The notes beneath the pieces were generated by a model. It was not told the DNA's origin and did not search any database. It worked only from the letters and a program-made list of their open reading frames with translations. Position numbers and translations under genes: made by a program. From positions 1 through 39,771 of IMG/VR virus record IMGVR_UViG_3300046535_000998: a stretch of DNA of 39,771 nucleotides. The stretch is one strand, 5' to 3'. This stretch comes from a virus. Below are positions 2,194-37,273 of this stretch, in pieces (the first letter of the stretch is position 1; the number at the start of each line of letters is the position of its first letter).

Positions 2194-2229
2194 GGCCGGG
2201 CAGCGAGGAAATTTCCCTACTGCCCGGCC
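2194..2229. repeat. 10-bp inverted repeat enclosing an operator-like palindrome
   Basis: Arms GGCCGGGCAG and CTGCCCGGCC flank an AAATTT-centred core between the tape measure and tail genes. The same arms flank a degenerate core at 27722-27758. No T-run follows here on the minus strand, so terminator function is uncertain. Confidence 0.7.
2200..2223. promoter_or_regulatory. Operator-like palindrome, copy 1
   Basis: 24-base near-palindrome, core AGGAAATTTCCC, flanks GCAGCG / TACTGC. It lies in the 65-base gap between the tape measure stop and the tail gene start, within a larger stem. Confidence 0.65.
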
Positions 2230-2236
2230 ATGGTGA

Positions 2237-4852
2237 TTACCGCCGGAACGGCACGTACGAACCGGTGTTGCGCGCGGCGTCTTGCAGCATTACGCGCTTG
2301 ATCGTGTCGGCTAGGTCGCGGTCCGCCGTGACGGATCCCTGCACCGTTACGTGCACGTGCGTGTGATGCTGGACCGGGCCGGCCGAGGGCAGCGAGGCGG
2401 AACCGCCCGCAAAGGCAGGCTCAAGGCCGCCGATGCTTCCCGCGCCAATCGCCGCGTTAGCTAGCTTCCGAACGGCGCCGGTTGCCTTGTCGGCGTGTTG
2501 GTCGACACCGAGGGCGATTCCCTCGGGAATGGCCCGACCGACCACATTCGCGAACACCTTGGAAGGCGAGTTGATATCTAGGACCGACTTGGCGGCATTT
2601 AGGGCGTCGTGTGCAAGATTCGAAATCTTGTCGGTCAGCCAGTGCCAGGCGCCCGTCAATCCGTTGATGATGCCGGTAACGATCCCCTCGCCGACCGCAC
2701 TGAATTTGTGCACAGCACCGGAGAGGAACGACAGCATTTCGTCCCACTTTTCAGCGATCCAACTGCCGATCGAGCCGAAAATCGACTTGATATCCGCCCA
2801 CAGCAGTTTCATGGGAAAAACCGCGTAGTGGTATACGAGATTCCAGACGCTTAGCGCCTTTCCGGCGACCCAATCCCAGGCCGCCCCGAGCCAGCCGGCC
2901 AGCGTATCCCAGAGCGACATCAGGAATGCGCCGATTTGCTTAGTCGGGAGGACCACGTGCTGATATACCAGCGTCCAGGTGCTGAGCGCGACACCGCAGA
3001 TCCAATCCCAGATACCGCCGAAAAAGTCGGCGATTCCGCCCCAAATTGAAGAGGCCGTGTGGGCAATTGCCGTGTGCGTCCGATTCCAGATGCCAATCAG
3101 AATCGCAATCGGCGCCGCGAAAATCAGCAGCAGCAACGGCCACCACTTCGCGAAAAACGACGAGATCCCGTGCCAGACAGCCGCCGTGACATTCGAGATC
3201 CAGTGCCACGCCGAAACGATCGGGTCGGCTACCGCGTGCCAGGCAGACGAGAAAAACGCCGCGACAGAATGCCAGGCCGCCACAATCGGCGCAACAATGT
3301 ACGTGTGCCACGCCGAGGCCGTCTCGTTCGCAAGCCAATGCCAGGCACCGACCAGCCAATCTACGACATCCTTTGTGATCTGCTTAATCCACGTCCACAC
3401 CTCGCGCCAGTGCATGACCAGCAGGACCAGGGCCGCGCCGAGGACCGCAATCAAGATGACCAGCTCGGGAATTCCGGTCGCCCACATGGCCGCAGCAAAG
3501 TTCCATGCCGCGATGCTGGCAGCGACCAGGCCCACCGCGAGGATTCCGCCGATGGCACCGCCGAGGGCCTCAACCACAACCCGGTGATGCGCGAGCCACG
3601 TGGTCCCCTCGTTGAACAGATCAAAAATCTTCATCGCCACGGGCATTAGCTTCTGGCCGATGGTGATTTCAAGGGCCTCAAAATGCCCCTTGGCCTCGGC
3701 TAGCTTTTGGTTGAAAGTCGCTTGTACGTCCTTCCAACCCTCAATGTCCCTACCGCCAGCCTTGACGTGCTCGGAAATGCCCTTGACGTTCTCCTGAAAC
3801 GTCTTCATATGGTCGCCCGTAAGCTGCAAAGCGCCCATCATCGACTTAGTTCCGCCGACCATCGTGGCAAGCGCACCAATGTACGTCTGCTGCGCCGGAG
3901 GAATGTTGGCGAGCACCTTTTGAAACTCGGTCGCGTTCGCCGACGCCTTTTGCAGATGCTCAATCAGCACCGTGCCAGCGGGGCCCATTTTCGCCTTAAT
4001 GGCGTCGGTGAGCATATTCAGCGTGGAAGCTAGGCCGTTGGTCCCGAGGTTCTTGCTGACCTCAACGGAACTCAGACCGAGCGACTTCATTTCGGCCGCA
4101 GCCTTTGGCGTCGCGTTCGAGAGCTGCCCGATGGTCTGCCGCAGATAGGTAGCCGCAACGTCCGCCGAGGTGCCCTGCGCGGTCATGGTCGCCATTGCGC
4201 CGAGGACCTCATTAAGGCCCACCTTTGCAGACGAAGAAACCGGCAGAATCGATGCCATAGAGCCGGCCAGGGCTTCCATATTGGTTTTGCCCTCGGCCTC
4301 GGTGCCAATGAGGGCGTTCATAACGTCGGTCGCGTTTTGCTGCGTCTTGATGACGTCGTTTGTCTTGAGGCCGTATGCGTTCATAGCCGTTGTCACGGCG
4401 TCCGTAACGCTGCCCAGCTCGGCCGCACCGACCTTGGCGCCCATGGCGGAGACCTTGAGCAGGTTAAGGGCGTCGGCCCCGTGATAGCCGGCTGACTCGA
4501 CCGTGTAAAGGCCCGTAGTTAGGTGCTCGGTCGACTGCCCGACCTCGCCGGCCATCCGTAGGACGCCGTCCCCAACCATTTTCATGTTGGCCGCAGACTC
4601 GCCGGCGCCCGTGCGGACACGCGTCATTGCCGTATCAAAATCGGCCGCCATGTGCACCATGTGCGCACCGGCGATCACCGCACCAGCAGCCACGCCAAGA
4701 AAGGCGTACTTAGATATCGTGGCTAGCTGCTGAAAACTCGAACTGCCTTGCCGTTCGATGTTCTTTAGCTCGGCCTTGACGCCCTTAGCCGTGGAATGAA
4801 ACCCGGTAGCGCTGCCGAGGAATTCGATAAATACCGGGGGAAGCGCACCCAC
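2237..4852 (-). CDS. Tail tape measure protein
   Basis: 871 residues from a GTG start. It sets tail length and occupies the tail tube before DNA ejection. The N-terminal ~330 residues have the TP901-type tape-measure pattern (GVAAGAVIAGAHMVHMAADFDTAMTRVRTGAG, then SVTDAVTTAMNAYGL and VLGAMATMTAQGTSAD). The middle (~430-720) is hydrophobic with repeated Trp motifs (AWHWL, AWHTYI, AWHSV, AWHAV, AWHWI), typical of the membrane-active part of tape measures. The C-terminus contains SPSKVFANVVGRAIPEGIALGV, a common phage tape-measure ending. It is the longest gene and follows the chaperone frames as expected. Only short for a siphophage tail if the tail is under about 130 nm. Confidence 0.95.
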   Translation of the reverse strand: MGALPPVFIEFLGSATGFHSTAKGVKAELKNIERQGSSSFQQLATISKYAFLGVAAGAVIAGAHMVHMAADFDTAMTRVRTGAGESAANMKMVGDGVLRMAGEVGQSTEHLTTGLYTVESAGYHGADALNLLKVSAMGAKVGAAELGSVTDAVTTAMNAYGLKTNDVIKTQQNATDVMNALIGTEAEGKTNMEALAGSMASILPVSSSAKVGLNEVLGAMATMTAQGTSADVAATYLRQTIGQLSNATPKAAAEMKSLGLSSVEVSKNLGTNGLASTLNMLTDAIKAKMGPAGTVLIEHLQKASANATEFQKVLANIPPAQQTYIGALATMVGGTKSMMGALQLTGDHMKTFQENVKGISEHVKAGGRDIEGWKDVQATFNQKLAEAKGHFEALEITIGQKLMPVAMKIFDLFNEGTTWLAHHRVVVEALGGAIGGILAVGLVAASIAAWNFAAAMWATGIPELVILIAVLGAALVLLVMHWREVWTWIKQITKDVVDWLVGAWHWLANETASAWHTYIVAPIVAAWHSVAAFFSSAWHAVADPIVSAWHWISNVTAAVWHGISSFFAKWWPLLLLIFAAPIAILIGIWNRTHTAIAHTASSIWGGIADFFGGIWDWICGVALSTWTLVYQHVVLPTKQIGAFLMSLWDTLAGWLGAAWDWVAGKALSVWNLVYHYAVFPMKLLWADIKSIFGSIGSWIAEKWDEMLSFLSGAVHKFSAVGEGIVTGIINGLTGAWHWLTDKISNLAHDALNAAKSVLDINSPSKVFANVVGRAIPEGIALGVDQHADKATGAVRKLANAAIGAGSIGGLEPAFAGGSASLPSAGPVQHHTHVHVTVQGSVTADRDLADTIKRVMLQDAARNTGSYVPFRR

Positions 4853-4861
4853 AGCGTCACA

Positions 4862-5347
4862 TCATTTCTTTATGCTCGTCGCTTTCGCCCACGCCGCAGC
4901 CCAAACGGCGGGCATCTTCCCTTCCGCCTTTGCGACACCGGGGCGGAAAAACGGGTACTTGTTCTCTACTTCGCCCTTGTACATGTTCTGCCAGCCGAAT
5001 TTGCCACCGGACATAACCACGGCGGAGAAAGTGCCCAGAGTCCGGCGGGCATTACGGCTGCCACGAATGGACTTGTAAAGGTCACCGGTCAGCCGGCCCG
5101 GACCGCCACTCTTCCGGACAACGTGCGGATTCAGGCCGAGGGATACACCCTCGCGGTCCTTAGTCTTACCCCGGTGATCCCAGCGAGGCCGGCCCCGCAT
5201 ATTCGACCGGACAGACTGTTTCGTGATCTGCTGCACCTTTTTAAGGGCGAACACGGTATTCCGGTCTACCTCGCGTTGCATGGCCGTTAGGCCCGCATCG
5301 AGAATTCCCGTACCTCGGACGACGCCCCGCACAGAGTCGTTAGGCAT
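4862..5347 (-). CDS. HK97 gp10-like tail completion / minor tail protein
   Basis: 161 residues from ATG 5347 (GAGAGG eight bases upstream; a longer frame from 5365 lacks a site). Basic N-terminal half with LTAMQREVDRNTVFALKKVQ followed by an RSNMRGRPRW stretch and GRLTGDLYKSIR, a pattern seen in HK97 gp10-like proteins that finish tail assembly. The start overlaps the end of the second chaperone frame by eight bases and the stop is nine bases before the tape measure start. The position between chaperones and tape measure is less common than near the connector genes, so the family call is moderate. Confidence 0.6.
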   Translation of the reverse strand: MPNDSVRGVVRGTGILDAGLTAMQREVDRNTVFALKKVQQITKQSVRSNMRGRPRWDHRGKTKDREGVSLGLNPHVVRKSGGPGRLTGDLYKSIRGSRNARRTLGTFSAVVMSGGKFGWQNMYKGEVENKYPFFRPGVAKAEGKMPAVWAAAWAKATSIKK

Positions 5348-5573
5348 TCGACTGCCTCTCGTCAATGTTGCGCTGCGCGCGCTTTACGGCGTCGTCAACT
5401 GCCAGCAGCCAATCAAGGGTTACGGCGGATTCGTCGGCGAGGTCGGACGGGCGACAATGCATCAGTGTGCACAGCCGCCACGTCCGGTACTCGTCTACGG
5501 GTAGCTTGTCCGCCGGAAACTCAAAGGTCCCCTCTAGCGTGCTGCTTAGGCGATAGAGGGCGCGGTAGGGGAA
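5340..5573 (-). CDS. Tail assembly chaperone, frameshift extension (T-like)
   Basis: Open -1 frame of 77 codons with no convincing start of its own, running from just after a TGA at 5574-5576 to TAA 5340-5342. It encodes FPYRALYRLSSTLEGTFEF... and DLADESAVTLDWLLAVDDAV, acidic and helical. It overlaps the end of the upstream chaperone frame by 28 bases, so a ribosome slipping by -1 before TAA 5546 would make a G-T fusion, as in lambda gpG/gpGT and many actinophages. The only repetitive candidate in the overlap is TTCCCCT (5567-5573, minus strand), which is not a canonical heptamer. Confidence 0.65.
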   Translation of the reverse strand, partial: FPYRALYRLSSTLEGTFEFPADKLPVDEYRTWRLCTLMHCRPSDLADESAVTLDWLLAVDDAVKRAQRNIDERQSNA

Positions 5574-5992
5574 TCAGCGTCCGGGGTCGGCTCAAAGTTC
5601 GGCATGAGTTCCCGCAGGAGCGGCGCACAAGCCGTACGGAGGGCGTCAAGGTCGCGCCCAGGAACGTCCTGCACGGCGTCCACAGTCACCGGGAACTCAT
5701 ACGACCAGCCACGGACCACAGCGGCTACTAGGGCGTCGTTTAGCTCCTCTAGCAGGTCGAACGCCTCGCCCATACCGGCGGCTACCTTGAGCTGCACGTC
5801 GGCGGGAATCTCGGCGTCGTTACCGGCGGCAGCCTGCGCGGCCTCGGCCTCGCGAATCGCAGCAGCAAAGGCGGGCATGCCCGCTAGTCGCGTCTGAATC
5901 CGGCGGATAGGCCGGCGCTGCCGCTCGGTCACGTCCACGGCGTCGCGGATATCGGCGGTCGCGCCGGAGGGCAGGGTGATGTGCTGAGCCAT
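5546..5992 (-). CDS. Tail assembly chaperone (G-like)
   Basis: 148 residues from ATG 5992, whose start overlaps the tail tube stop as TAATG. The protein is Ala/Glu-rich and helical (FAAAIREAEAAQAAAGNDAE, FDLLEELNDALVAAVVRGW), as usual for the G protein that coats the tape measure during tail assembly. Its last codons overlap the -1 open frame that extends it. Function rests on position between tail tube and tape measure together with the paired overlapping frame, not on a distinctive motif. Confidence 0.7.
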   Translation of the reverse strand: MAQHITLPSGATADIRDAVDVTERQRRPIRRIQTRLAGMPAFAAAIREAEAAQAAAGNDAEIPADVQLKVAAGMGEAFDLLEELNDALVAAVVRGWSYEFPVTVDAVQDVPGRDLDALRTACAPLLRELMPNFEPTPDADSPTAPSIA

Positions 5993-6963
5993 TACTTGTA
6001 CGTCCCGGTGTTGATTGCGTTCTGGAGAGTGGCCTTGATCGGGGCGTAACCACCCGAGGCGCCAATGTCGGTCGTGTTCGCCTTTGCAGTGAAGGCGACT
6101 GCTAGCTCTACGTAATCCTTGCCACGGCCAATGTCGGCGCTCTGGTAAACCACACTGGACATGTGCAGCTTGAGCGAAACCAGCGTGGGGCCGGTGCCCG
6201 AGGAAAACGTGATATCTAGCGAAGGATCGGTAGCCGTCAGATAATTCGTTAGCTGCGACTCGTCTTCCATGATCAGGGTCATCTTTCCGGAAACGGAAAG
6301 CGGACCGGACCAAAGGGCGTGCGGATTCTGCGAGTTGTCGACCGTGGTCACGATGGTTACCGGACGCTTAATCGTCAGATCACCGTCTAGGACCGTGTGA
6401 ACGGCCGTGCCGCCAATCTGCACCGTGCCGGTCCAACCGGGCATCGGCGAGGCAGTCGTGAAAGACGGAGTCGGGTTCGTGGTCGGGACGGACGCGAGGG
6501 CCACAGCCTTAGCCGTGAACGTCAGCATTCCATCGGCGTTGAACTTGAACCCGACCTCGGAAAACTTCGCGCCCGGGTACTGCCGCGTATTGACCGCGTA
6601 ATAGTCCGTAATCGTGTACGACGGGCACTGGCCGTCACCGGAATTCAGCAGCGAGCAGGAATGCGTATACGGGGCCGACGCGCCCGTAGTGGCAATCTCG
6701 CCGAGGACACCGACAAGAGGCCACCCGATGGTGTCCGGGAACACGTCGCCGGCGAAATCGAAGGTAGACGACTTGACGGTAGGAACCTCGTCGTAGTAGT
6801 CCGTCATCGAGCCGCGCATACCCTTGTCCTGCGCGAACTTCGTAACGTCCTTCGGAGTCGGCGGGCCAGTCGGAGCGATAAACGCCGTAGCCGCAACCGG
6901 GGTGCCGAAAACGGTTTCCTTGGCAATGCCGAGGACGGTAGCGAAAGTGGGCTTTGCACCCAT
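5992..6963 (-). CDS. Major tail protein (tail tube)
   Basis: 323 residues, ATG 6963 preceded by AAGGGG. The opening LGIAKETVFGTPVAATAFIAP is typical of actinophage tail tube proteins (phage tail tube family), followed by beta-rich sequence with alternating Thr/Ser/Val and the late motif FTAKANTTDIGA. It forms stacked hexameric rings of the tail tube. Position directly upstream of the chaperone frames supports the call. Confidence 0.88.
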   Translation of the reverse strand: MGAKPTFATVLGIAKETVFGTPVAATAFIAPTGPPTPKDVTKFAQDKGMRGSMTDYYDEVPTVKSSTFDFAGDVFPDTIGWPLVGVLGEIATTGASAPYTHSCSLLNSGDGQCPSYTITDYYAVNTRQYPGAKFSEVGFKFNADGMLTFTAKAVALASVPTTNPTPSFTTASPMPGWTGTVQIGGTAVHTVLDGDLTIKRPVTIVTTVDNSQNPHALWSGPLSVSGKMTLIMEDESQLTNYLTATDPSLDITFSSGTGPTLVSLKLHMSSVVYQSADIGRGKDYVELAVAFTAKANTTDIGASGGYAPIKATLQNAINTGTYK

Positions 6964-6973
6964 AGAGAACCCC

Positions 6974-7150
6974 TTAGATAGCTAGGTCGGAAACGGCCGG
7001 GGCCGGAGCAGGAACGGGGGAACCGTCAGCCGCAGACCAACGGCCGTCCGTCGGGGCCTCGGCGAGGTCCGCAACGGCACCCGGAGTCACCTCAAGGCCG
7101 AGCGTCGGGTAATAGCGGGCGTCGTCACCCGTGTACTTGAAAGAGGGCAT
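6974..7150 (-). CDS. Small structural-region protein, unknown function
   Basis: 58 residues from ATG 7150 (GGAG ten bases upstream); ends in a Pro/Ala-rich tail (SPVPAPAPAV). It begins SFKYTGDDARYYPTLGLEV, resembling short proteins with a beta-hairpin often encoded beside tail tube genes in actinophages. It sits between the tail terminator-like gene and the tube gene, ten bases from the latter. No motif gives a function. Confidence 0.65.
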   Translation of the reverse strand: MPSFKYTGDDARYYPTLGLEVTPGAVADLAEAPTDGRWSAADGSPVPAPAPAVSDLAI

Positions 7151-7172
7151 GCGCGAAGACTCCAAAGCGCGA

Positions 7173-7196
7173 GCAGTAGGGAAATTTCCGTGCAGC
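7173..7196. promoter_or_regulatory. Operator-like palindrome, copy 2
   Basis: Left half matches the perfect copy (GCAGTAGGGAAATTTCC); right arm diverges (GTGCAGC). It fills the 45-base gap between two late genes and carries no obvious promoter, fitting a stoperator-like role. Confidence 0.6.
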
Positions 7197-7663
7197 TAGA
7201 TACGCTGACGGCACTGGATTTCGACGGCGGCAGACGCCACGCGGCCGGAATGCGCGTCATCCCACATGACCTCTTGCGTGTGGCTGATAGGGCGAGCCAC
7301 GATGACCGCACCACCGAGCGTCGGATCGCTGCGCACAACGGAAATCGCAACGTCGACCAGGTCAGCACAGCGCGCGTAAGCGGCCTGCGGGTCGTCCCCG
7401 CCCCGGTACACCTCAACCTGAATTTCTACGGTGTACTGCTCGTCCAGCCAGCCGGCCCCGCCGGATCCGACAAGGGAACTGACGCCCAACTGCCGCGCCA
7501 CCTTGCCCACAGTCACAATGTCCTCGGGCTGATCAGGGCCGGGCTCGTCATAACAGACCAGCAGGCTCGCGGACTTGTCGAACATGTCCGGGGTCATGGC
7601 AGCGGTTAGGGCCTGAAACAGGTACGCCCGGACGGCCGTGGTCGTAGATACGGGAATGGTCAT
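7196..7663 (-). CDS. Tail terminator-like protein
   Basis: 155 residues from ATG 7663, overlapping the upstream connector stop as TGATG; a longer frame to 7699 is rejected for that reason. Content: AVRAYLFQALTAAM, then DEQYTVEIQVEVYRGGDDPQAAYARCADLVDVAISVVRSDPTLGG, a pattern seen in small tail terminator/minor tail proteins that cap the tail tube at the neck. Its place between connector and tube is right for that role. Confidence 0.6.
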   Translation of the reverse strand: MTIPVSTTTAVRAYLFQALTAAMTPDMFDKSASLLVCYDEPGPDQPEDIVTVGKVARQLGVSSLVGSGGAGWLDEQYTVEIQVEVYRGGDDPQAAYARCADLVDVAISVVRSDPTLGGAVIVARPISHTQEVMWDDAHSGRVASAAVEIQCRQRI

Positions 7664-8550
7664 CAGGCAATCCCCGGAGCGCGGCGGAATCCGGCCCAAA
7701 GCTCAATCACGCGCGAGGGCAGGGCGAAACCGGTGGGCACACCGGGCACGTCACCGTCGTAACCGGATCCGCCGAACTTGGGTCGTCCACCCTGCTGGGT
7801 CAACTGCCAAAGGTGCCGGATCAGTTCGAGCGTCCCGAGGCGAACCGAGTAGGGAACGGAACCGGCACGGCCGGCCGTGTAAACGAGCTTGACGTTCTTC
7901 TCACCCGCAGCGAACAAGGCAGCGCCACCGCCCATCGTGCGGCGCGAAACCGTGCCCGTCGAATAGTCGACCGTGAACGCGAACGCGCTGGACTGCCCGC
8001 CTAGGTCCTGCTCGGTGAGCGCGAAACCCGAAAGGCCGTAGTACTCGGTGCAGCTAAGCACCTTTGCTAGGGGCAGCCAATCCGGGGAAAGCGTCGACAC
8101 TCCCCCGTCGAAAAACTGAGTATGCGTCTCGGGCAGGAACGGGCCGCAATGGTCGCGCGCGAGGTCGGCAGCCGCGAGGATGAATCCCTGTAGCTCGTCG
8201 TCCTGGCGCACGTCGTCCGCCCGGATATTTAGGTGCGCCTTGACCGAGGCGAGGTCGACTAGCTGTTCTACGCCCACCGGGCGCACGGTGAACTGTCCCT
8301 CGCTGGCGAACCCGACCCCCGAGGCCGAGGCGGTCCAGCGGTAAAGCCACACGCCCGGCACGGACACCGAGGGGACGACGGCCGTAAAGGCACCGCCACC
8401 GGCCGAGGCGACAGCCGGCGTACTGACGGAGCCCGAGGGGTCCGTGACAGTCACAGAGGCGCCCACAGGCCCGGTTACCGGTACGCCCTGGTCGTCTAGG
8501 ACAGTGACGGTAACGCCTACGTCCTGCCCCGTGTAGTAGATCAGTGCCAC
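7663..8550 (-). CDS. Head-tail connector with N-terminal Ig-like domain
   Basis: 295 residues, GTG 8550 with AGGAAGG upstream. Residues ~8-90 are a beta-sandwich-like segment (VTVTVLDDQGVPVTGPVG, VTVTDPSGS, PGVWLYRWTASASG). Residues ~97-290 match the gp6/gp15-like connector pattern: LVDLASVKAHLNIRADD...DELQGFILAAADLARDHCG, then VKLVYTAGRAGSVPYSVRLGTLELIRHLWQ. The connector bridges portal and tail. The Ig-like part is an added decoration that could sit on the capsid neck. The stop overlaps the next gene's start. Confidence 0.75.
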   Translation of the reverse strand: MALIYYTGQDVGVTVTVLDDQGVPVTGPVGASVTVTDPSGSVSTPAVASAGGGAFTAVVPSVSVPGVWLYRWTASASGVGFASEGQFTVRPVGVEQLVDLASVKAHLNIRADDVRQDDELQGFILAAADLARDHCGPFLPETHTQFFDGGVSTLSPDWLPLAKVLSCTEYYGLSGFALTEQDLGGQSSAFAFTVDYSTGTVSRRTMGGGAALFAAGEKNVKLVYTAGRAGSVPYSVRLGTLELIRHLWQLTQQGGRPKFGGSGYDGDVPGVPTGFALPSRVIELWAGFRRAPGIA

Positions 8551-8561
8551 GGGGAACCTTC

Positions 8562-8807
8562 CTAGGCAGCCTTGCGCGGAGCGCGCTTAGTGGCAGCGGA
8601 GAGAGCGGCCTCGGCGTCGGCCAGGACCGCGACGCGCATTGCCTCGACCTCGGCGCCGAGGTGCGACACGTCGTAGGTCCGCAGACTCTCAACGGTGGTC
8701 GTCAGTTCGGCGCGCACGTGCGTTACGCGGTCCTTAAGGCCGTGAAGCGTGGAAGCCTCTAGGTCGTCCATAAGGCCGCGCGCGTAGTTAATCGGGTTGA
8801 TATTCAC
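8562..8807 (-). CDS. Small Ala-rich protein of unknown function
   Basis: 81 residues from GTG 8807, with AGAAAGGA upstream. The start MNINPINYARGLMDDLEAS is followed by a helical segment (LTTTVESLRTYDVSHLGAEVEAMRVAVLADAEAAL) and a basic end KRAPRKAA. It lies between capsid and connector genes, so a minor head or neck role is possible, but nothing in the sequence decides. Confidence 0.6.
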   Translation of the reverse strand: MNINPINYARGLMDDLEASTLHGLKDRVTHVRAELTTTVESLRTYDVSHLGAEVEAMRVAVLADAEAALSAATKRAPRKAA

Positions 8808-8835
8808 GCGATTTCCTTTCTAAGGGGTCCGGCAA

Positions 8836-8866
8836 AGCGCCCCCACCACGTGACAGCAGGGGCGCT
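8836..8866 (-). terminator. Stem-loop after the capsid gene
   Basis: Minus-strand stem AGCGCCCC / GGGGCGCT with a 15-base loop, followed by TTTGCC. It lies nine bases past the capsid gene stop and could attenuate transcription so that capsid mRNA exceeds downstream mRNA. Confidence 0.6.
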
Positions 8867-8874
8867 AAGCGGGA

Positions 8875-10209
8875 TTAGAAAGTAGGCGTGACCAGCGCGG
8901 CACCGTCGATTACGGAAATCGACTTGGTGTAGCGGGCCGGCTGGAACGACGCGTAGTTGTAGAGCCGCACGAATACCGAAAGCTGGGAGGCGAACGTCTG
9001 GGGGAACGCCTCAGCCTTGACATTGCCCTCCCACAGGACCAGGTCGGCCATACGGGCGACAATGATTCGGTCCTGATTGGTACCGGCACCGACGTTGGTC
9101 GGGATAAGCGCGTCAACGTAGACCGGAAGGCCCAGCATCGTGCCTACGTAACCCTGCGAGACCACGTCACCCATGGTGCCCAGCGCGTTCATCGGCGCAT
9201 TTGCGTTCGGCACGACCAGCGGACGGCTCTGGCCGTCAACAGCGGCTAGCAGCATCGCCCAACGGCGCGGGTGCATGATGATCGTGTCCGGCGGGAGGAA
9301 CCGGTTCGTGTGAATCGTCTGAATGGCGTTCGCCACGGACGCGTAAATCGTCTTCGCGTCGGAAGTCGCACCGGTCGTGATCGCATTCGTACCCGACAGA
9401 GTGAAAATGCCGAGAAGCTGACCAGCCGCACCGGAACCGGAGAGAACCTGGCTATTCAGGTTCACGGCGTACGCGCCAGCGAGGTCCGCAAGGATCATGT
9501 CATCCACGTTTAGCGGAGACTGCTCGATCAGCTGTAGGGAGAGCGTCTGGCCACCGGCGATCGTCACAACCGAGCTGGAAATCGCGGTCGTGGTCGCGTC
9601 CGTCTGCTGCACGGCGGTGTTCTGCGTACCCTGAATCGCAGTCTGCGTACCGGTCGCAACCTTCGGAATCGAAATCGAGTCCGTACCGGCCGGCAGGGCC
9701 TGAGTCGGCACCCGATCGGCGGTCACACGACCAGCGCGAGCGAGCTTTACGAACTCATTCTCCAGCCACAGGGGCGGAACTAGCTCGCCACCGGCACCAT
9801 TCACGGTGGTAAGCGCTCGGGCTTCCTTGCCGCGCGCCGTAGCGTTTCGCGTCAGACGGTCGTACGCCTCGCGGTCGCCGTTCTTCTGCGAGTTCCACAG
9901 GTCCCGGAAATAGGACTTGCCACCCGGGCCAGAGCGGTAAATCTCCGGCTCGCTGGTCACCTGAAAACCGGACGGGGCGTAACGCTTCGCCATCTCGGCA
10001 GCGGCAACGTCGGCCCGGTGCTGCTCGTCCAGCTCAGCCACGCGAGAGTCAATATCCCGAATCTCAGTCTCGGCAGCGTCGAAACGGCCGGACTCATCGG
10101 CGGAAAGCGAGCGGTTCTCAGCCTTAGCGGCGTCGACCAGCGCGGCCATTTCGGCACTGCGCTCCGCTCGCTCGGCTAGGAGGCCGTTAATAACGGTGGG
10201 CTTGTCCAC
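8875..10209 (-). CDS. Major capsid protein, HK97 fold
   Basis: 444 residues from GTG 10209 (AAGGAG upstream). Residues ~1-80 are a charged coiled coil (GLLAERAERSAEMAALVDAA... ETEIRDIDSRVAELDEQH), the delta/scaffold domain normally removed by the protease. The rest has phage_capsid features: GGELVPPLWLENEFVKLARAGRVTADRV, SPLNVDDMILADLAGAYAVNLNSQVLSG, FLPPDTIIMHPRRWAMLLA, LPVYVDALIPTN, and WEGNVKAEAFPQT. The gene is preceded by the protease with a four-base gap, the standard order. Confidence 0.95.
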   Translation of the reverse strand: MDKPTVINGLLAERAERSAEMAALVDAAKAENRSLSADESGRFDAAETEIRDIDSRVAELDEQHRADVAAAEMAKRYAPSGFQVTSEPEIYRSGPGGKSYFRDLWNSQKNGDREAYDRLTRNATARGKEARALTTVNGAGGELVPPLWLENEFVKLARAGRVTADRVPTQALPAGTDSISIPKVATGTQTAIQGTQNTAVQQTDATTTAISSSVVTIAGGQTLSLQLIEQSPLNVDDMILADLAGAYAVNLNSQVLSGSGAAGQLLGIFTLSGTNAITTGATSDAKTIYASVANAIQTIHTNRFLPPDTIIMHPRRWAMLLAAVDGQSRPLVVPNANAPMNALGTMGDVVSQGYVGTMLGLPVYVDALIPTNVGAGTNQDRIIVARMADLVLWEGNVKAEAFPQTFASQLSVFVRLYNYASFQPARYTKSISVIDGAALVTPTF

Positions 10210-10213
10210 GGAA

Positions 10214-10921
10214 TTACTCCTTACCAGTGCGGAAATTTCCGCGCTGCGGGTTGGCTAGTAGGCGCATGCGCGCGTTGAACATGGAAAGGTCGACCGGGGC
10301 CGGCGGTAGGCCCTCAAGTTCCCGAATCTGATTGGGAGTGAGGAACCCCTCGCGCGCCAGAATGGCGAGGTCCAGGCCCCGCAGCGTCGCCCCCGCCGTA
10401 GCGGGATTCGCGCCGTAATTGACCGCGCTTACATCGCCCTTATTTAGGTCGACCTCGGTAATGTCGCGCTGCGTCCAGTCGGGCGACCAGACCTGAGACG
10501 TGACCCGAAATCCGAAACTCATTTCGTCAATGTCGCCCCGGTCCATCGCACTTCGTAGGCTCTGCACGTCCGGCGAGGCCGGATCTAGGTCCGCCTCCAC
10601 CAGCAGCCCTACAGAGTCCTCGGCGAGGCGCATAGTGCCGCTCTTAGTGCGAGCGAGCGTCAGGCCCGCGTGATTCACCTTGAACGGCACATCGGCGCCG
10701 TCGGCGAGCGTCCGCGTGAACGCCCCTCGGCGGATCACCTCGGTATAGTCGCCCAGGAAATCGCACATTTCGTACGGGGATTCAGTCACCGACGCATAGC
10801 CGGTAAACGTGAAAGTCTCGCCGCCCGTACCGTTCGGCACCCCGCGCATTTCCATGTCCCGGAAGTTTGCGCGCCGCTCTACCGAGGCCGTCTGACGACC
10901 CCGGATTGATAGATCATTCAT
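10214..10921 (-). CDS. HK97-type prohead protease
   Basis: 235 residues; ATG 10921 overlaps the portal stop as TAATG. Peptidase U35 features: FTGYASV...YEMCDFLGDYTEVIRRGAFTRTL, the catalytic His in FKVNHAGLTLAR, the catalytic Ser in DEMSFGFRV, and DVSAVNYGANPAT near the C-terminus. It matures the capsid by removing the N-terminal scaffold domain. An operator-like palindrome lies inside its last codons (RGNFR). Confidence 0.92.
   Translation of the reverse strand: MNDLSIRGRQTASVERRANFRDMEMRGVPNGTGGETFTFTGYASVTESPYEMCDFLGDYTEVIRRGAFTRTLADGADVPFKVNHAGLTLARTKSGTMRLAEDSVGLLVEADLDPASPDVQSLRSAMDRGDIDEMSFGFRVTSQVWSPDWTQRDITEVDLNKGDVSAVNYGANPATAGATLRGLDLAILAREGFLTPNQIRELEGLPPAPVDLSMFNARMRLLANPQRGNFRTGKE
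10224..10247. promoter_or_regulatory. Operator-like palindrome, copy 3
   Basis: Core CGGAAATTTCCG with partly symmetric flanks (AGTG / CGCT). It is inside the protease reading frame, just before the capsid gene start. Confidence 0.5.
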
Positions 10922-12162
10922 TACAGAACCGCCCCTAGCGCGTCAGCCTTTGGAGCCGAGGGCGAGGCCCCCGTGTCCTTCATTGGCTTGACGTTGGAAT
11001 TCAGCGGCGCCGCGATATCGTCGCCACCGTCAATCGGGCCGTAATTCTCAAGGGCCCGAATTTCGTTGGTCGTCAGCAGTGCAGCCGCTCGGGCCGCGCC
11101 GTACATCGCATAGCGGCCGGCGGTGTCAGTTCTTAGCAACGCGTCAACGTTGAACCGCGCCGTTTGCGGGCCGGGCAGCATGGCGGACCATGCGTCTTCA
11201 AACCGGGCGAGCCACGGGCCGAGGGTGTACGCGAGGAAAGCTAGGCCCTGCTGCTCAATGCCGGTTCCCCAAGACGTTGTCTTGTCGACCTGGCCGAGCA
11301 TGTGCGGCGGCACACCGAACAACATGGCAATGTCGAGATTCTGCGCCGCGCGAGTGCCGAGGAACTGTGCATCCTCCGGCGAAACGGAAATGCTGCGCCA
11401 GGACGCCCCACCGGACAAAATTCCGACCGTGTGAGAGTTCTCAAGGCCCGCATGCGAGGCGGTAAACGACTCCTTGAGGCCCCGCGCACGCTCCTTATCG
11501 AGATCCCCCGGGACCTCAACGACCCCCGTTAGGTGTGCACCCTTGGCGAAGAACCGCGCCCCGAATTCCTCGGCAGCGAGGCCAAGGCCGATCGAGTTCC
11601 GCGCGTACGCAATGACCGACATTCCGGTAGGCGATTCCGGGTAGGACATGCCTATCAGGTGGACAATGTCGTCAGAGTCGACAGGCTTACGGTCGATTTC
11701 ATAGACACGCTCGCCGTACGCGTTGAACTGACAGCGGACACGGTCCGGGTGAATGACCCGCAAGCGGACAGGCCGGCCCCGCGCGTCCCGAGCGAGTACC
11801 AGGCAATACGCGTTACCCCGCAGCAGCAGAGAAACCATGAGCTGAGACAGGCCGAGCCGGCGCGTCGGGAAACGGCTGTTAGCCTGCCCGCCGAACGGAT
11901 CCCGGATCACCTGCGGAACAGGGTCGACCCGCTTTCGGATATCGCCGTCGGCGAGGGTGGCCTCAAACGGCAGCGTCGACACAGCGTCAGACAGGATCCG
12001 GACGCTTGCAGCAACGGCAATGAGCTGCATTGCGCTGTCATCCGTGACCGGAACGCCCGCTGTAGTGAACGCCGCGAGGGAACCGTTCGACGGAATCGAC
12101 CACGGATCACCGGGGCCCGAGGGCGAGAAAAAGCGCTTCTCAAAGCGTCCTAGTAGGCTCAC
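10921..12162 (-). CDS. Portal protein, HK97 family
   Basis: 413 residues from GTG 12162, overlapping the preceding small gene as GTGA. Features: AVAASVRILSDAVSTLPFEA, LLRGNAYCLVLARDARGRPVRLRVIHPDRVR, DIVHLIGMSYPESPTGMSVIAYARNSIGLGLAAEEFGARFF, and VPPHMLGQVDKTTSWGTGIEQQGLAFLAYTLGPWLARFEDAW. It forms the dodecameric ring through which DNA enters and leaves the head. Confidence 0.95.
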   Translation of the reverse strand: MSLLGRFEKRFFSPSGPGDPWSIPSNGSLAAFTTAGVPVTDDSAMQLIAVAASVRILSDAVSTLPFEATLADGDIRKRVDPVPQVIRDPFGGQANSRFPTRRLGLSQLMVSLLLRGNAYCLVLARDARGRPVRLRVIHPDRVRCQFNAYGERVYEIDRKPVDSDDIVHLIGMSYPESPTGMSVIAYARNSIGLGLAAEEFGARFFAKGAHLTGVVEVPGDLDKERARGLKESFTASHAGLENSHTVGILSGGASWRSISVSPEDAQFLGTRAAQNLDIAMLFGVPPHMLGQVDKTTSWGTGIEQQGLAFLAYTLGPWLARFEDAWSAMLPGPQTARFNVDALLRTDTAGRYAMYGAARAAALLTTNEIRALENYGPIDGGDDIAAPLNSNVKPMKDTGASPSAPKADALGAVL

Positions 12163-12323
12163 CGGTCAATCACCCAACCCGCAACGAGTAGGGCAACGCC
12201 GAGCAGCAGGACACCCGCCGCAACGTTCCATGACCACACCGCACCGACCAGGCAACCGACACCGGCCACGTCCGCAACTTCACCTAGCACGCGCCGGAGA
12301 GTGCGCGGATCAATGCGCTTCAC
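12159..12323 (-). CDS. Small single-span membrane protein
   Basis: 54 residues from GTG 12323, with AGGGGTG just upstream, ending in a four-base overlap with the portal start. The basic start MKRIDPRTLRRVLGEV is followed by a long hydrophobic stretch from VAGVGCLVGAV to LLLGVALLVAGWVI. Tight packing between terminase and portal supports translation. Function unknown. Confidence 0.7.
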   Translation of the reverse strand: MKRIDPRTLRRVLGEVADVAGVGCLVGAVWSWNVAAGVLLLGVALLVAGWVIDR

Positions 12324-12334
12324 ACGCACACCCC

Positions 12335-13858
12335 TTAAAGGTCAGCCCAACTGAAAAATTGGGGAGTCGGTTCGGGCTCGGGCTCAAAACACGCCCGCTC
12401 CAGGCCCATCACTGCGGAAATCGCGAGGTCGATTTTCCGAGGGGAACCCTTCGCATCCTTGGACAGGCGCGAACCGCGCGCATCCGTGCGAATAACGCAA
12501 TTCGACAGGTGCCGCGCCAGGCGCGGATCCCCGGAATGCGTGAGGGTTTTGTTCATAACCGCTTCGTAGAAACGGGTGGTCGCCGGAATCATTCGGGCCG
12601 GAGACTGCGGGAACTCGACCACGGGTAGGCCCTCGGATTCGAGCACCTGATACGTGCGGGCCCAGCGGAACGGGTCACAGACAATCTCGCGAACCTGCCA
12701 GCGTCGGCAGGCTGCCCGGATTTCGTCCTCAACGTTCACAATGGGAACGGTCCAGTCATTGCCGGACCCCGTCGGCTTTTCCCAAGCGGCCACAACGTCG
12801 ACATGCGGCAGCAGGGAAATTTCCCCGTTGCTGGTCGGGCACGCCACAACCACCAGGGCCGTTGAGTCGTTCGAAAACGAGCCGTCGAAACCCAAAACAA
12901 CGTCTGCGCCGTCTGGAATCTCGACCTCGGGCGCCGCACAGTCGTCCCATGCGCCGGCCGGTAGCCAAGCCTGCGCCGTGGACACCCACTGATTAAGGCG
13001 CTTCGTACGGAATTCCGCCTCGGGGGTGCGGAGCACAGCGGAATGGAAATCGTCCGCCGAGACAATGTCCCCGTAACCGGGATTCGCAGCAGCCCAAACC
13101 TCGGGGTCGCGATGGTCGGCACCCTCGGGCGCGCCCCACCACTCAAAGTAGAAAGTCGGGTCGTCCAGCTCGCCGGAAACGAGCTTGCACCCGTACTGAT
13201 ACATGCCGTAACACAGGGAATCCTGACCGGTGCTGTCTGACTTGACACCCGCAGTCGTGATCCCGACTAGCAGAGGTTCCGTACGGGCACCGGTGGCGAG
13301 GGCCATAACGTCCCATAGCTCACGGTTTGGCTGCGCGTGGACCTCATCGAAAAGGACGAGATGCGGATTTAGACCTTCTTTGGTAAAGGCCTCGGCGGAC
13401 AGAACCCGATAGACGGATCCGGTCGCCGGAAGTTCAATTGCGTCTCGGTACGTCTTGAACATTCCGCCGAATTGCGGCTCTAGTTCAATCATCTTTTTAG
13501 CCGTACCGAACACAATTCGCGCCTGCTCTTTATCCGCAGCGCACGAGAAAACCTCGCCACCGCGCGGACCGAACGCGAGGCCGAAAAGCGCAATGCCAGC
13601 GCCTAGGGCCGACTTGCCGTTTTTACGGGGAACGCCGATTAGGGCCTGGCGATGCTTGAGCCGGCCATCGGTCCGACGGGCGAGCAAACGCCCCATCATT
13701 CCGGTCTGCCAATCGCGCATGACCATCGGTTCACCGGCGGAACCGCCGACGGAATCCTTAGTCACCCGGAGAAACTGAGTGAAATCACCGAATCCGTCAC
13801 CGTCACCACCCACCACCGAGGCAGGGTCGACATGCGAAAGGAACAGCGGGCCGGTCAT
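12335..13858 (-). CDS. terL: Terminase large subunit
   Basis: 507 residues; ATG 13858 overlaps the small subunit stop. ATPase: Walker A GVPRKNGKSA at ~75-84, Walker B HLVLFDEVHA at ~166-175, coupling motif near LLVGITTAGVKSD. Nuclease domain begins around DVVLGFDGSFSNDSTALVV, with EIVCDPFRW and DLAISAVMGLERA further on. It pumps DNA into the prohead and cuts it. An operator-like palindrome lies within the nuclease domain coding sequence (NGEISLLPH). Confidence 0.95.
   Translation of the reverse strand: MTGPLFLSHVDPASVVGGDGDGFGDFTQFLRVTKDSVGGSAGEPMVMRDWQTGMMGRLLARRTDGRLKHRQALIGVPRKNGKSALGAGIALFGLAFGPRGGEVFSCAADKEQARIVFGTAKKMIELEPQFGGMFKTYRDAIELPATGSVYRVLSAEAFTKEGLNPHLVLFDEVHAQPNRELWDVMALATGARTEPLLVGITTAGVKSDSTGQDSLCYGMYQYGCKLVSGELDDPTFYFEWWGAPEGADHRDPEVWAAANPGYGDIVSADDFHSAVLRTPEAEFRTKRLNQWVSTAQAWLPAGAWDDCAAPEVEIPDGADVVLGFDGSFSNDSTALVVVACPTSNGEISLLPHVDVVAAWEKPTGSGNDWTVPIVNVEDEIRAACRRWQVREIVCDPFRWARTYQVLESEGLPVVEFPQSPARMIPATTRFYEAVMNKTLTHSGDPRLARHLSNCVIRTDARGSRLSKDAKGSPRKIDLAISAVMGLERACFEPEPEPTPQFFSWADL
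12808..12831. promoter_or_regulatory. Operator-like palindrome, copy 4 (inside terL)
   Basis: Core GGGAAATTTCCC with flanks GGCAGCA / CGTTGCT. Retention of the full 12-base core within a coding sequence argues for selection on the DNA site. Confidence 0.6.
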
Positions 13859-15504: not shown

Positions 15505-15528
15505 GCAGTAGGGAAATTTCCCTACTGC
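15505..15528. promoter_or_regulatory. Operator-like palindrome, copy 5 (perfect)
   Basis: A perfect 24-base palindrome: GCAGTA, then GGGAAATTTCCC, then TACTGC. It lies between the last tRNA gene and HNH 2, so a bound repressor could block the tRNA-to-late read-through. Confidence 0.75.
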
Positions 15529-22707: not shown

Positions 22708-22731
22708 GCAACGGGGAAATTTCCCTGTTGC
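22708..22731. promoter_or_regulatory. Operator-like palindrome, copy 6
   Basis: GCAACG-GGGAAATTTCCC-TGTTGC, adjacent to a -35 hexamer, the usual place for a repressor site. Confidence 0.75.
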
Positions 22732-23259: not shown

Positions 23260-23283
23260 GCAACAGGGAAATTTCCCCGCTGC
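23260..23283. promoter_or_regulatory. Operator-like palindrome, copy 7
   Basis: GCAACA-GGGAAATTTCCC-CGCTGC next to the cassette 2 -35. Confidence 0.75.
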
Positions 23284-23808: not shown

Positions 23809-23832
23809 GCAACAGGGAAATTTCCTAGTTGC
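23809..23832. promoter_or_regulatory. Operator-like palindrome, copy 8
   Basis: GCAACA-GGGAAATTTCCT-AGTTGC; it overlaps the 3' end of the 23825 gene. Confidence 0.7.
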
Positions 23833-24064: not shown

Positions 24065-24088
24065 GCAATAGGGAAATTTCCGCACTGC
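24065..24088. promoter_or_regulatory. Operator-like palindrome, copy 9
   Basis: GCAATA-GGGAAATTTCCG-CACTGC, 19 bases before the 24046 start, overlapping where transcription or translation would begin. Confidence 0.7.
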
Positions 24089-25438: not shown

Positions 25439-25471
25439 CGAAAACCCCTGTTCTTCGGTGTCTGTGAGGGA

Positions 25472-25489
25472 GAGAACCCAAGGAATTCC
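25472..25489 (-). promoter_or_regulatory. Phage promoter motif 2 (sigma-like gene)
   Basis: GGAAT-TCCTT-GGGTTCTC, ending 34 bases before the sigma-like start. Confidence 0.7.
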
Positions 25490-25795: not shown

Positions 25796-25819
25796 CCAAC
25801 AGGGAAATTTCCCTACTGC
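25796..25819. promoter_or_regulatory. Operator-like palindrome, copy 10
   Basis: CCAACA-GGGAAATTTCCC-TACTGC, between the polymerase stop and the palindrome-rich hub. Confidence 0.7.
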
Positions 25820-27721: not shown

Positions 27722-27758
27722 GGCCGGGCAGCGGAGAAATGTCCCCAACTGCCCGGCC
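27722..27758 (-). terminator. Terminator-like stem with a degenerate operator core in its loop
   Basis: Minus strand GGCCGGGCAG ... CTGCCCGGCC then TTTTGC, between the primase-helicase stop and the polymerase start. The 17-base loop contains a degraded palindrome (GGGGACATTTCTCC). Its arms equal those at 2194-2229. Confidence 0.65.
27728..27752. promoter_or_regulatory. Operator-like palindrome, degenerate copy
   Basis: Core GAGAAATGTCCCC with GCAGCG / AACTGC ends and one extra base. Probably weak or decayed. Confidence 0.4.
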
Positions 27759-34334: not shown

Positions 34335-34585
34335 TACGCCCCCTCGGTCAGGTGCGCCGGTACGGTGCCGTCTGCCTTGCGGAGGACAATCACGCTGCCG
34401 CCAAACGGCCCGGTCCGGTGGATAGGCTCGCGAGCCTTGCCGTACTGCGCTTCACGCTCAACGGTCATAACCAGGCCCCCGGACTTGCCCCGGACAACGC
34501 GGCCGATTTTCGTACGCCACGTGCTAGACGCACAGGAAAGGATCAAGTCACCCTCGGCGACCTCAATTCCAAATGCGTCGGTCAC
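34334..34585 (-). CDS. Hypothetical early protein
   Basis: 83 residues from GTG 34585, GTGA overlap with the nuclease gene. DAFGIEVAEGDLILSCASSTWRTKIGRVVRGKSGGLVMTVERE ... GGSVIVLRKADG: SH3-like barrel pattern. Coupling to the RecB-like nuclease hints at a DNA-related role. Confidence 0.62.
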   Translation of the reverse strand: MTDAFGIEVAEGDLILSCASSTWRTKIGRVVRGKSGGLVMTVEREAQYGKAREPIHRTGPFGGSVIVLRKADGTVPAHLTEGA

Positions 34586-35415
34586 GTGCCGCGCCTCTGA
34601 GTACCGGTCACCAGCCGGCCCGCGCTGCGGGCAATGGCCCGACCTAGAACCGTCTTGGACGTTTCCCGGTCCCACTCAAAAACCTTGCGGAGCGTGAGAA
34701 AGAGCTCGAACACGTCCGCCTCAATGCGGACGGGGATAAACGCCCACTGCGATTCGGTGATGTGCAGGACCGCCCCGCCGTCAAATTCGGGCATCGGCGT
34801 CCGGTTGCCCTCGGCGTCGGTGATGTAATCCGCGTTCGCGTAGGCAGCGAGCTGAATTGCGACCTCGGCGTGTGTGTCCTTTGAGGTCTTCCAGTCGACC
34901 ATCAGCAGGACGGGCGTACCCGAGCGGTCCGGGGTAGGCGTACCGTCCTCGGCGAGCCACACGCGCAGGATTGCGTCAAAACTGCCCGCGTACTGGTGAG
35001 TGTCCGACCAGGCGATATCTTCCGCCCGGACTAGCTCGGGATGCACCGCAGCGAGGAACTCCAGGAAATTGGCCTTGTACGGCACCATGTCCGGGTGTAC
35101 GGCCCCAACGTCCTCGCCCTTGATCAGACGCTCGAACAGGTCATGCGCTGCGCTGCCGACGTTCGCCCGAATCGTGGTGTACCGGCGCGCGGCGCCCTTG
35201 AGGTAGTCGATTGCGCCTTGCCGGTCGTTGTCTGCCATCTGCGCCACGAACGGGAGCGAATCGACGGCTAGTTCGGCGGTCAGCTTGGCGTTCCACGGGC
35301 CCAGGAACGGCTTGGGAAGCATGCCGATGGTTGAGGTGACACCGGGGACCTTGACGCGCGTCTCACTGTTCACATACCAGCGGGATCCCCCGCGCTGAAT
35401 CGTGCGTACTGACAC
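34582..35415 (-). CDS. RecB/Cas4-like PD-(D/E)XK exonuclease
   Basis: 277 residues from GTG 35415 (AGGAG upstream; the upstream extension enters the promoter motif). Motifs in order: VGSAAHDLFERLIKGE (H-x3-E), YAGSFDAILRVWL (Asp), LLMVDWKTSKD (D-x-K), VAIQLAAYANADYI (Q-x3-Y). Such nucleases act with recombinases or degrade DNA ends. No partner annealing protein is recognised here. Confidence 0.85.
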   Translation of the reverse strand: MSVRTIQRGGSRWYVNSETRVKVPGVTSTIGMLPKPFLGPWNAKLTAELAVDSLPFVAQMADNDRQGAIDYLKGAARRYTTIRANVGSAAHDLFERLIKGEDVGAVHPDMVPYKANFLEFLAAVHPELVRAEDIAWSDTHQYAGSFDAILRVWLAEDGTPTPDRSGTPVLLMVDWKTSKDTHAEVAIQLAAYANADYITDAEGNRTPMPEFDGGAVLHITESQWAFIPVRIEADVFELFLTLRKVFEWDRETSKTVLGRAIARSAGRLVTGTQRRGT

Positions 35416-35450
35416 TCTCTCGGCTCCTCGCCTAGTAGGTACGGGAGAGA

Positions 35451-35468
35451 GAGAACCCACGACGTTCC
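35451..35468 (-). promoter_or_regulatory. Phage promoter motif 6 (nuclease operon)
   Basis: GGAAC-GTCGT-GGGTTCTC ending 36 bases before the nuclease start. Confidence 0.68.
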
Positions 35469-35478: not shown

Positions 35479-35574
35479 GGTGTCGAGTTACGTTGGCGAG
35501 GTGTTTTTGGGTTTGGCTTAGGTATTTTTCTCACGCACAAACTCAAAAACAGGAGAGAACCGACACTCGACACC
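35479..35574 (-). repeat. 96-base repeat, copy B
   Basis: Gap-free partner of 16497-16592, with the same inverted ends and internal CGGTTCTC; motif 6 begins 11 bases beyond it on the minus strand, and motif 1 begins 23 beyond copy A. Confidence 0.9.
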
Positions 35575-35965: not shown

Positions 35966-37168
35966 TCAGTCCTGCTGCGCGTCGCCCTGGTCGCCGCTCT
36001 CGGCCGGCTGCTGGACCGGGGCCGATGCCGGAGCGATGAGAGGCTCGCCAGCCTGCGCGAGACGCAGTTCAAGGCTCTGCTGCACCGCGAGGACGCCGAG
36101 CTTTACCGCCTGCAATTCGGCATGAAGGGTGCGCATTTCGTCCGCCGCCTTGACCTTTGCGGCGACCTCGTCAAGGCCCTCAAGGTCCTTCTTCGACTTC
36201 TCGACCTTGGCCACGCTCTTCTCAATCGCGGACTTACGGGGACGGGAACCCGCACCGCCCGAGGCGCCACCCTCGCCGGACACCTCGGCCTCGTCCTGGT
36301 CGTCCTCGTCGGCGAACGGGTCGGCAGCAGGCAGGGCCCTGCCCGCATCCTTTGCAGCCTTGAGGGCCGCGCGCTTGTTCGCCTCGCGCAGGGCAGCCTT
36401 TTCCTTCTTCGACTCACGGTCCAGACCGAAGTAGACGTGCAGAATTTCCGTCTTGTCGAGGTCGCCGTTTTCCGTCTTGATTTCCTTGAGCGACGGCTCA
36501 AGCTCCAACAGCTTCTCGAACTTTGCCCACTCTTCCGGGTGCTCGCCGATGCTGCGCGTGTACTCGACCAACAGAGACGACGTCTGGTAGTTAACGGCAT
36601 TCTTAATCTGCCGCAGGGCGTCAATCTGCTTTTCCGTGACCAGGGTCGGGCGGACACCGTCATACACAGCGGCGGCAGCGTCGCGGTAACCCTGCGAGGA
36701 ACGGCCGTCAAGCGCCGGAACGCCCTGCGGGTTGAGCGTCATGGTCCGCAGGCTCAGCAGGATGCCGGACACGTCCTCGGCGAGCGAGGAAACCTGCTCC
36801 TGCCGCTGGACACCCTCGGTCATGATCTCGATAGCCTGCGCCACGCGCTCCGCCGCACCGGGCAGAACCTTGTAATCCGTCGTCTCAAGGGACGCGATTT
36901 CGGCACCGCTCGTGACGGTGCCCGACTTGCCCGGAACGGCCACAGCGGCAGGCTTGGCAGCGAGGGCCTCGCGCATGGCGTTGCGGGCGTCGATCCGGCG
37001 GGCGGTCACACCACGGCCCGAGAGACCGGAAATCAGGGCCTCGGTTTCGGCCTCAAGCTCTGCCGCACCCTCGGTGTTCCCCTCAACGGTGAGCGACCGA
37101 ATCCGCTCGATGTTGGCCGCAACCACGTCGTCCGGGCTGGCCTGCTGGTCGTTCTGCTGCTCGCTCAC
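35966..37168 (-). CDS. Large helical early protein, unknown function
   Basis: 400 residues from GTG 37168 (AGGGGAG upstream). Mostly helical and charged: VAANIERIRSLTVEGNTEGAAELEAETEALI; AERVAQAIEIMTEGVQRQEQVSSLAEDVSGILLSLR; then an acidic/basic low-complexity hinge (DPFADEDDQDEAEVSGEGG, RPRKSAIEKSVAKVEKSKKDLEGL) and a final coiled coil. First gene of the early region, behind an operator-flanked promoter. Could be a scaffold or host-modifying factor; no family recognised. Confidence 0.78.
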   Translation of the reverse strand: MSEQQNDQQASPDDVVAANIERIRSLTVEGNTEGAAELEAETEALISGLSGRGVTARRIDARNAMREALAAKPAAVAVPGKSGTVTSGAEIASLETTDYKVLPGAAERVAQAIEIMTEGVQRQEQVSSLAEDVSGILLSLRTMTLNPQGVPALDGRSSQGYRDAAAAVYDGVRPTLVTEKQIDALRQIKNAVNYQTSSLLVEYTRSIGEHPEEWAKFEKLLELEPSLKEIKTENGDLDKTEILHVYFGLDRESKKEKAALREANKRAALKAAKDAGRALPAADPFADEDDQDEAEVSGEGGASGGAGSRPRKSAIEKSVAKVEKSKKDLEGLDEVAAKVKAADEMRTLHAELQAVKLGVLAVQQSLELRLAQAGEPLIAPASAPVQQPAESGDQGDAQQD

Positions 37169-37217
37169 TGCGTCTCCCCTACCCTGCGGCCCGGCCCCTT
37201 GCCGAACCAACGGGCAC

Positions 37218-37245
37218 AACGTAGCACAGGCCGAGGTGCGCTCAA
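37218..37245 (-). promoter_or_regulatory. Early promoter of the 35966 gene
   Basis: TTGAGC-N16-TACGTT, with palindrome copy 11 four bases upstream of the -35, the same geometry as the three cassette promoters. Confidence 0.62.
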
Positions 37246-37249
37246 ACGA

Positions 37250-37273
37250 CCAACGGGGAAATTTCCCTACTGC
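37250..37273. promoter_or_regulatory. Operator-like palindrome, copy 11
   Basis: CCAACG-GGGAAATTTCCC-TACTGC, beside the leftmost-transcribed early promoter. Confidence 0.75.

Follow-up and report, generated by a model that had tools for sequence, protein, structure and literature searches.

Dispersed 24-bp palindromes in a phiC31-family phage are probable operators of its own c repressor

Introduction

In the Streptomyces phage phiC31, the c repressor binds its repeats and maintains lysogeny. These conserved inverted repeats (CIRs) are many dispersed, near-identical palindromes that lie mostly right after gene stops, with one before c. Here we describe a comparable set of 24-base-pair (bp) palindromes in the viral record IMGVR_UViG_3300046535_000998 (39,771 bases, analyzed at its full length and called the window below). 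The window resembles phiC31 in this layout and in carrying a c homologue of the Pfam family PF25746 between the genes for a deoxynucleoside monophosphate (dNMP) kinase and an exonuclease; it differs in the spelling of the site (GCARYRGGGAAATTTCCCYRYTGC in the window, CCTACTCACGTGAGTAGG in phiC31) and in repressor residues 251 and 254, which are R and K in the window and G and R in phiC31. By the operator CCTACTCACGTGAGTAGG the window lies outside the immunity group of phiC31 itself, its sites being of another sequence. Judged from sequence comparison, the window sites appear to be the counterpart of the CIRs, with binding by c supported by covariation. We consider it very probable that they are operators of the phage's own c repressor, through which c would repress transcription, act as a roadblock and confer immunity.

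Two further systems invite comparison. Phages of the L5 type (cluster A) also carry many dispersed sites, at promoters and in intergenic gaps, and their motif diversity is tied to repressor diversity, according to the accessible portions of two reports (PMC6550527, PMC9283540). A sequence-only reading of the window had likened its palindromes to the stoperators of these phages, a classification that we do not retain because L5-type sites are 13 bp long, asymmetric and oriented with transcription, as stated in the accessible part of one of these reports (PMC9283540). L5-type sites are moreover bound by a monomer, whereas each window site is a symmetric 24-mer and the gene at the repressor position belongs to PF25746; that the window sites block elongation is possible. 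The repressor–stoperator system of R4 and phiJoe, likened here by description only, likewise concerns temperate Streptomyces phages with intergenic repressor sites, as far as the available part of its description goes (PMC10276819), and belongs to another phage group.

Results

The palindrome recurs far above chance. A 24-mer matrix, derived from the same 11 sites that it scores, gave these sites values of 30.8–40.2, while none of 200 dinucleotide shuffles exceeded 15.3, and the 12-base core GGGAAATTTCCC had 14 matches with up to two mismatches where 1.58 were expected (standard deviation 1.18; maximum 5 in 100 shuffles). The consensus half-site is GCARYRGGGAAA, and the pair GCARYRGGGAAA/TTTCCCYRYTGC is what a c dimer, or a higher symmetric oligomer, would recognize. 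Both the recurrence and the perfect copy at 15505–15528 had been noticed in the sequence-only reading, which counted eleven copies plus a degenerate one; the eleven hold, and the twelfth, at 27728–27751, is weak by sequence and is kept for its position. The next-best matrix places after the eleven were 10137 (12.6), 32045 (10.7) and 27728 (8.6), the last not significant by sequence; its offset of approximately 18 nucleotides (nt) from the primase stop equals the median of the post-primase sites found in 43 of 53 related genomes. Looser core matches at 20373 and 30234 were not supported as sites. All positions are collected in Table 1.

Two kinds of placement had been singled out from the letters alone, and both stand. 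Four sites (22708, 23260, 23809 and 37250) adjoin a TTGCGC or TTGAGC hexamer that is followed, after a 16-base spacer, by a −10-like hexamer. Two others lie within coding sequence: at 12808 the terL site coincides with a loop that has 3 residues missing from all 53 homologues, and at 10224 the site codes for a C-terminal extension of the protease, one missing from at least 21 of 22 homologues. As the sequence-only reading had suspected, protein conservation therefore does not explain these two copies, and, on this comparison of sequences, a DNA site appears to be the best explanation for them.

Table 1. Predicted operators and repressor-associated features in the window
Feature	Coordinates	Strand	Remarks
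Operator	2200..2223		13 nt past the stop of the tape-measure gene
Operator	7173..7196		Adjoins the stop of gene 7196-7699
Operator	10224..10247		Protease/capsid junction, within the C-terminal extension of the protease open reading frame; site after protease in 15/32 genomes
Operator	12808..12831		Within terL, loop insertion
Operator, perfect 24-bp palindrome	15505..15528		Between tRNA-Leu and HNH gene
Operator	22708..22731		Adjoins minus-strand promoter-like sequence: TTGCGC 22699-22704, GATAAC 22677-22682
Operator	23260..23283		Adjoins minus-strand promoter-like sequence: TTGCGC 23251-23256
Operator	23809..23832		Adjoins minus-strand promoter-like sequence: TTGCGC 23800-23805
Operator	24065..24088		Between small genes
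Operator	25796..25819		28 nt past the DNA polymerase stop
Degenerate operator	27728..27751		Past the primase stop; backed by position only
Operator	37250..37273		Between dNMP kinase and c; adjoins minus-strand promoter-like sequence: TTGAGC 37240-37245, TACGTT 37218-37223
c repressor gene	35966..37168	-	GTG start, 400 amino acids; Pfam PF25746
Repressor residues 239-274, predicted helix-turn-helix	36347..36454	-	Residues 251 and 254 covary with operator positions 8-10
Repressor helix 179-209, predicted	36542..36634	-	Residues 187-196 covary with operator positions
dNMP kinase gene	37310..37906	-	Conserved gene before c
Exonuclease gene	34582..35460	-	Conserved gene after c

The repressor gene and the phage that carries it. 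The product of the window gene at 35966–37168 scores 123 bits with PF25746, 'Streptomyces phage repressor protein c' (cut-off 27), and the family was also matched by all 39 aligned homologues. In BLASTP it shares 22% identity over 114 residues with phiC31 c and 25% with the repressor of Heather; as a direct query against viral contigs it found no relative and, because its sequence is too divergent, a profile was needed. The gene lies in the conserved family place between dNMP kinase and exonuclease, as c of phiC31 lies between dNMP kinase and gp1, which is an exonuclease in relatives, and an operator stands 81 nt upstream of the start codon. An AlphaFold2 model built on 33 sequences is almost entirely helical (mean predicted local distance difference test score, pLDDT, 84.7; predicted template modeling score, pTM, 0.57). 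With this model, Foldseek found no match in the PDB at E ≤ 0.001, and VIA-align against the PDB gave no clear match, its best being a designed helical protein (Z 8.5, root-mean-square deviation 3.5, 98 residues aligned) and its rows representing common helical arrangements; a profile search of PDB sequences returned nothing at E below 0.01. In BFVD, just three Streptomyces phage repressors fell below E 0.001. The core domain modeled from the single sequence reached a pLDDT of 48 and was unusable.

The recognizable genes of the window lie nearly all on the minus strand and include, by protein family, those for primase, DNA polymerase, resolvase, exonuclease, dNMP kinase, serine integrase and a sigma-like protein, together with tape measure, protease, portal, terminase and endolysin. 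The primase is 64–68% identical to the primases of phiC31, phiBT1, TG1, Heather and other Streptomyces phages. Together these protein sequences identify the window as a phiC31-family phage. The likeness to a repressor-site network of the phiC31 kind, drawn in the sequence-only reading, thus goes beyond resemblance, since its bearer is a member of that family with a c homologue of its own. At the DNA level, the only matches to positions 1–20000 in a megablast for close relatives were fragments of tRNA-Asp from six Pseudomonas phage records.

Palindromes and c occur together across the family. The comparison covered 62 genomes: the window itself, 14 phages from GenBank, drawn from 20 distinct phage names among the primase and sigma-factor relatives down to phiSASD1, and 47 IMG/VR contigs. 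The contigs came from 80 retained loci, of which 50 were chosen, with 3 then replaced by GenBank records, and 30, mostly shorter contigs, were left out. For each genome we took the most repeated 24-base near-palindrome, with two shuffles per genome and a cut-off of six copies. At least six copies of an own palindrome were present in 53 of the 62 genomes, compared with at most 2 in any shuffle; the search recovered 16 copies of the CCTACTCACGTGAGTAGG repeat in phiC31 and, under its stricter rule, 10 in the window. The profile detected c in 59 of the 62, and all 53 genomes with six or more operators are among these 59. The three genomes in which c was not found (phiSASD1, G019 and G025) had 3, 2 and 1 palindrome copies, respectively. 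In phiSASD1 (L097), which has no detectable c gene, the three copies resemble CGACTCAATTGAGTCG, possibly remnants of the operators that it had before its repressor was lost.

The spelling of the palindrome varies widely. After genomes with fewer than six copies and repressors less than 15% different had been dropped, the remaining 50 showed 42 different half-sites of 12 bases and 22 different inner pentamers, with some letters undecided. The operators closest to that of the window among the relatives compared were those of G039, GGTGGGTAAATTTACCCACC, tied with G037. The sequence-only reading had named absence of the core at aligned positions in close relatives as a refutation. Taken literally, this is what we found, the core GGAAATTTCC occurring just once in 82 fetched sequences besides the window; the test was wrongly posed, however, because relatives have differently spelled palindromes at the same junctions. 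The operator class of the window occurs in no other viral contig searched, GCANNNGGGAAATTTCCCNNNTGC having zero matches in IMG/VR with the window record itself left out; in a collection of bacterial and archaeal genomes it matched 15 stretches, one site each, none titled as an actinomycete. A literature search, to the extent that its sources were accessible, did not turn up an account of operator diversity within the phiC31 family, and we make no claim that none exists. In two genomes, G020 and G022 (L135–L136 and L139–L140), the arms of the operators are symmetric and the centre is asymmetric (CACATACAGGAAACTGTATGTG and similar).

The sites occupy shared gene junctions. We counted a site when it lay within −12 to +120 of a gene stop, using only genomes in which the gene was found with room behind it. 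A site follows the primase stop in 43 of 53 genomes, against 2.5 expected by random placing, and sites likewise follow polymerase (41/53), gp4 (39/48), dNMP kinase, which lies ahead of c (37/52), capsid (13/13), terL (26/50) and tape measure (18/25). No site was found after portal (0/33), lysin (0/36), gp3 (0/50), thyX (0/28) or the HNH gene gp30 (0/40). The sites of phiC31 itself show the same habit, mostly right after gene stops, and its site at 41028 precedes the HNH-type gene gp30, as the window site at 15505 precedes an HNH gene. Three window sites (2200, 25796 and 37250) and the weak one at 27728 fit shared junctions; 12808 does not.

With so many sites close behind stop codons, the palindromes might be thought to act as RNA hairpins, serving as processing signals or terminators at gene ends. 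We regard this as very unlikely: the sites of any one genome keep a fixed central sequence, more than pairing would require, the outer arms are often mispaired, and TTTT occurs within 35 bases upstream of 77 of 622 sites and downstream of 58, only a slight excess upstream; nor would a hairpin track repressor residues. Dispersed palindromes are also used by centromere-like systems, which raises the thought of partition, packaging or replication sites unrelated to lysogeny, but the placing at promoters and transcription-unit boundaries and the link with c make this the least probable of the explanations considered.

A subset of sites lies beside promoter-like sequences. Among 622 non-redundant sites (out of 730), promoter-like sequence begins within 14 bases downstream of 41, the corresponding counts being 5 for the other flank and 12 for a control interval, and TTG[AC] peaks at offset 1 from the site (30 against a mean of 6.5). 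This one-sided placing beside a −35 hexamer, and a palindrome centre that lies approximately 50 bp upstream of the start at the four window promoters and so within reach of polymerase, would also suit an activator or anti-terminator of lytic genes that binds in place of c, or a c that both activates and represses. Most sites, however, have no adjacent promoter-like sequence, the operator class follows the residues of c, and the three genomes that lack c also lack the sites; an activator is accordingly an improbable reading, if a less remote one than hairpins or partition sites.

Covariation of repressor and operator. Operator distance correlates with repressor distance when primase distance is allowed for (partial r 0.33; 0 of 999 permutations reached it). 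Column-by-column mutual information over the full repressor alignment was no better than a polymerase control and gave undefined values; it was replaced by mutual information over a repressor core alignment with block permutation. The strongest pairs of column and operator position then fell mostly in the predicted helix 179–209 and at the start of the predicted helix 254–274, the second of a helix-turn-helix-like pair.

Arg occupies the position aligned with K254 of the window in 28 of the 50 genomes, and C stands at half-site position 10 in 26 of these 28 and in 0 of the 22 others. On the primase tree, R254 and C10 each undergo 6 changes, and 7 when scored jointly; their changes therefore repeatedly coincide. 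Genomes with K254 (the window and four others) have G8 and A10 every time, and the ten with Y194, the window among them, have A10 every time. In each of the pairs window/G021 and G029/G030, sisters on the primase tree, K254 with R251 goes with GG at positions 8–9 and E254 with CC. The 30 unused loci served as a held-out set, 22 of them with a repressor core and ten of these non-redundant with at least three palindrome copies. Arg went with C10 in 3 of 3 and the others had C10 in 1 of 7, the exception being Lys (Fisher 0.03). In one of the ten, L034, the aligned residue is a gap and the operator is doubtful; the held-out locus L056 combines E254 with CC.

Discussion

We propose that in a lysogen the c repressor would exclude RNA polymerase from promoters whose −35 hexamer starts 3–4 bp from a site, four sites in the window, among them the promoter ahead of c itself. 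At the remaining sites, just past gene ends, bound c would act as a roadblock, so that there would be no read-through into the next lytic block, and the same binding would silence a superinfecting phage of the same operator class. Within each genome of the phiC31 family, the repressor and the full set of operators would change together, giving every lineage its own lock and key; with sites spelled differently, each phage apparently obeys only its own repressor.

Several observations weigh against this proposal or limit what supports it. Six of the 59 genomes with c have fewer than six copies (Euratis 4, Attoomi 4, G012 2, G014 3, G041 2 and G042 2), and looser palindrome searches in those six gave no clear rescue. 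The candidate early-promoter motif of the window, described below, is not adjacent to the operators. Operator distance correlates equally with primase distance when the repressor is allowed for (partial r also 0.33; 0/999), so shared descent matters, and operators also track phylogeny. Mutual information in the polymerase control columns was raised as well, z ≥ 4 being reached in 103 of 3449 tests there and in 89 of 1503 in the repressor core. Leave-one-out prediction from the two segments beat random column sets only modestly, and the segments had been picked on the same data. With no clear PDB match for the fold, the helix-turn-helix reading of c leans on the predicted secondary structure of one model.

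Beyond the proposed operators, we lean somewhat toward regarding the phiC31 family as a natural library of mutually orthogonal repressor–operator pairs, with a shared layout, a DNA-binding fold without known structural relative and a readable recognition code, in which the window would be the sole known carrier of its own class. The putative code would run from R254 to C10, from K254 with R251 to GG at 8–9, from E254 to CC at 8–9, and from Y194/Q195 to A10; every lineage would have changed the sequence of a dozen or more dispersed sites together with one protein, the junctions being kept. An old question of phage immunity is how specificity can shift in a repressor and, together with it, in ten to twenty dispersed operators. 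The family offers approximately forty half-site variants in one layout with the accompanying repressor residues, and exchanges of one or two residues would therefore be a way to test it. As orthogonal repressors, the pairs could be of use in Streptomyces synthetic biology, and operator classes would predict which phages of the family are homoimmune: by class, phiC31, phiBT1 and Vash would have at least partly common immunity, and Heather, Rowa and AbbeyMikolon would not.

Other features of the window

The motif GGGTTCTCT occurs in seven minus-strand copies (6972, 16465, 25480, 32819, 33393, 35459 and 35723), most of them with GGAAT or similar ahead and several preceding early-type genes or the tRNA cluster; in phiC31, GGGTTGCCGACTCCCTTAC is present four times. 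These copies are candidate early promoters with a lineage-specific sequence. Two of them are adjoined by the copies of a 96-base repeat (16497–16592 and 35479–35574; 88% identical) with inverted ends GGTGTCGAGT...ACTCGACACC. A sigma-factor-like gene of the phiC31 gp12 type (24623–25507) is 44–46% identical to its counterparts in Heather, RemusLoopin and Sebastisaurus. Eight tRNA genes lie at 15534–16338, one of them (15972–16043) with an undefined anticodon. Positions 1–148 and 39624–39771, at the ends of the record, form a direct repeat of 148 bases that is 99% identical, and the contig is therefore probably a complete genome.

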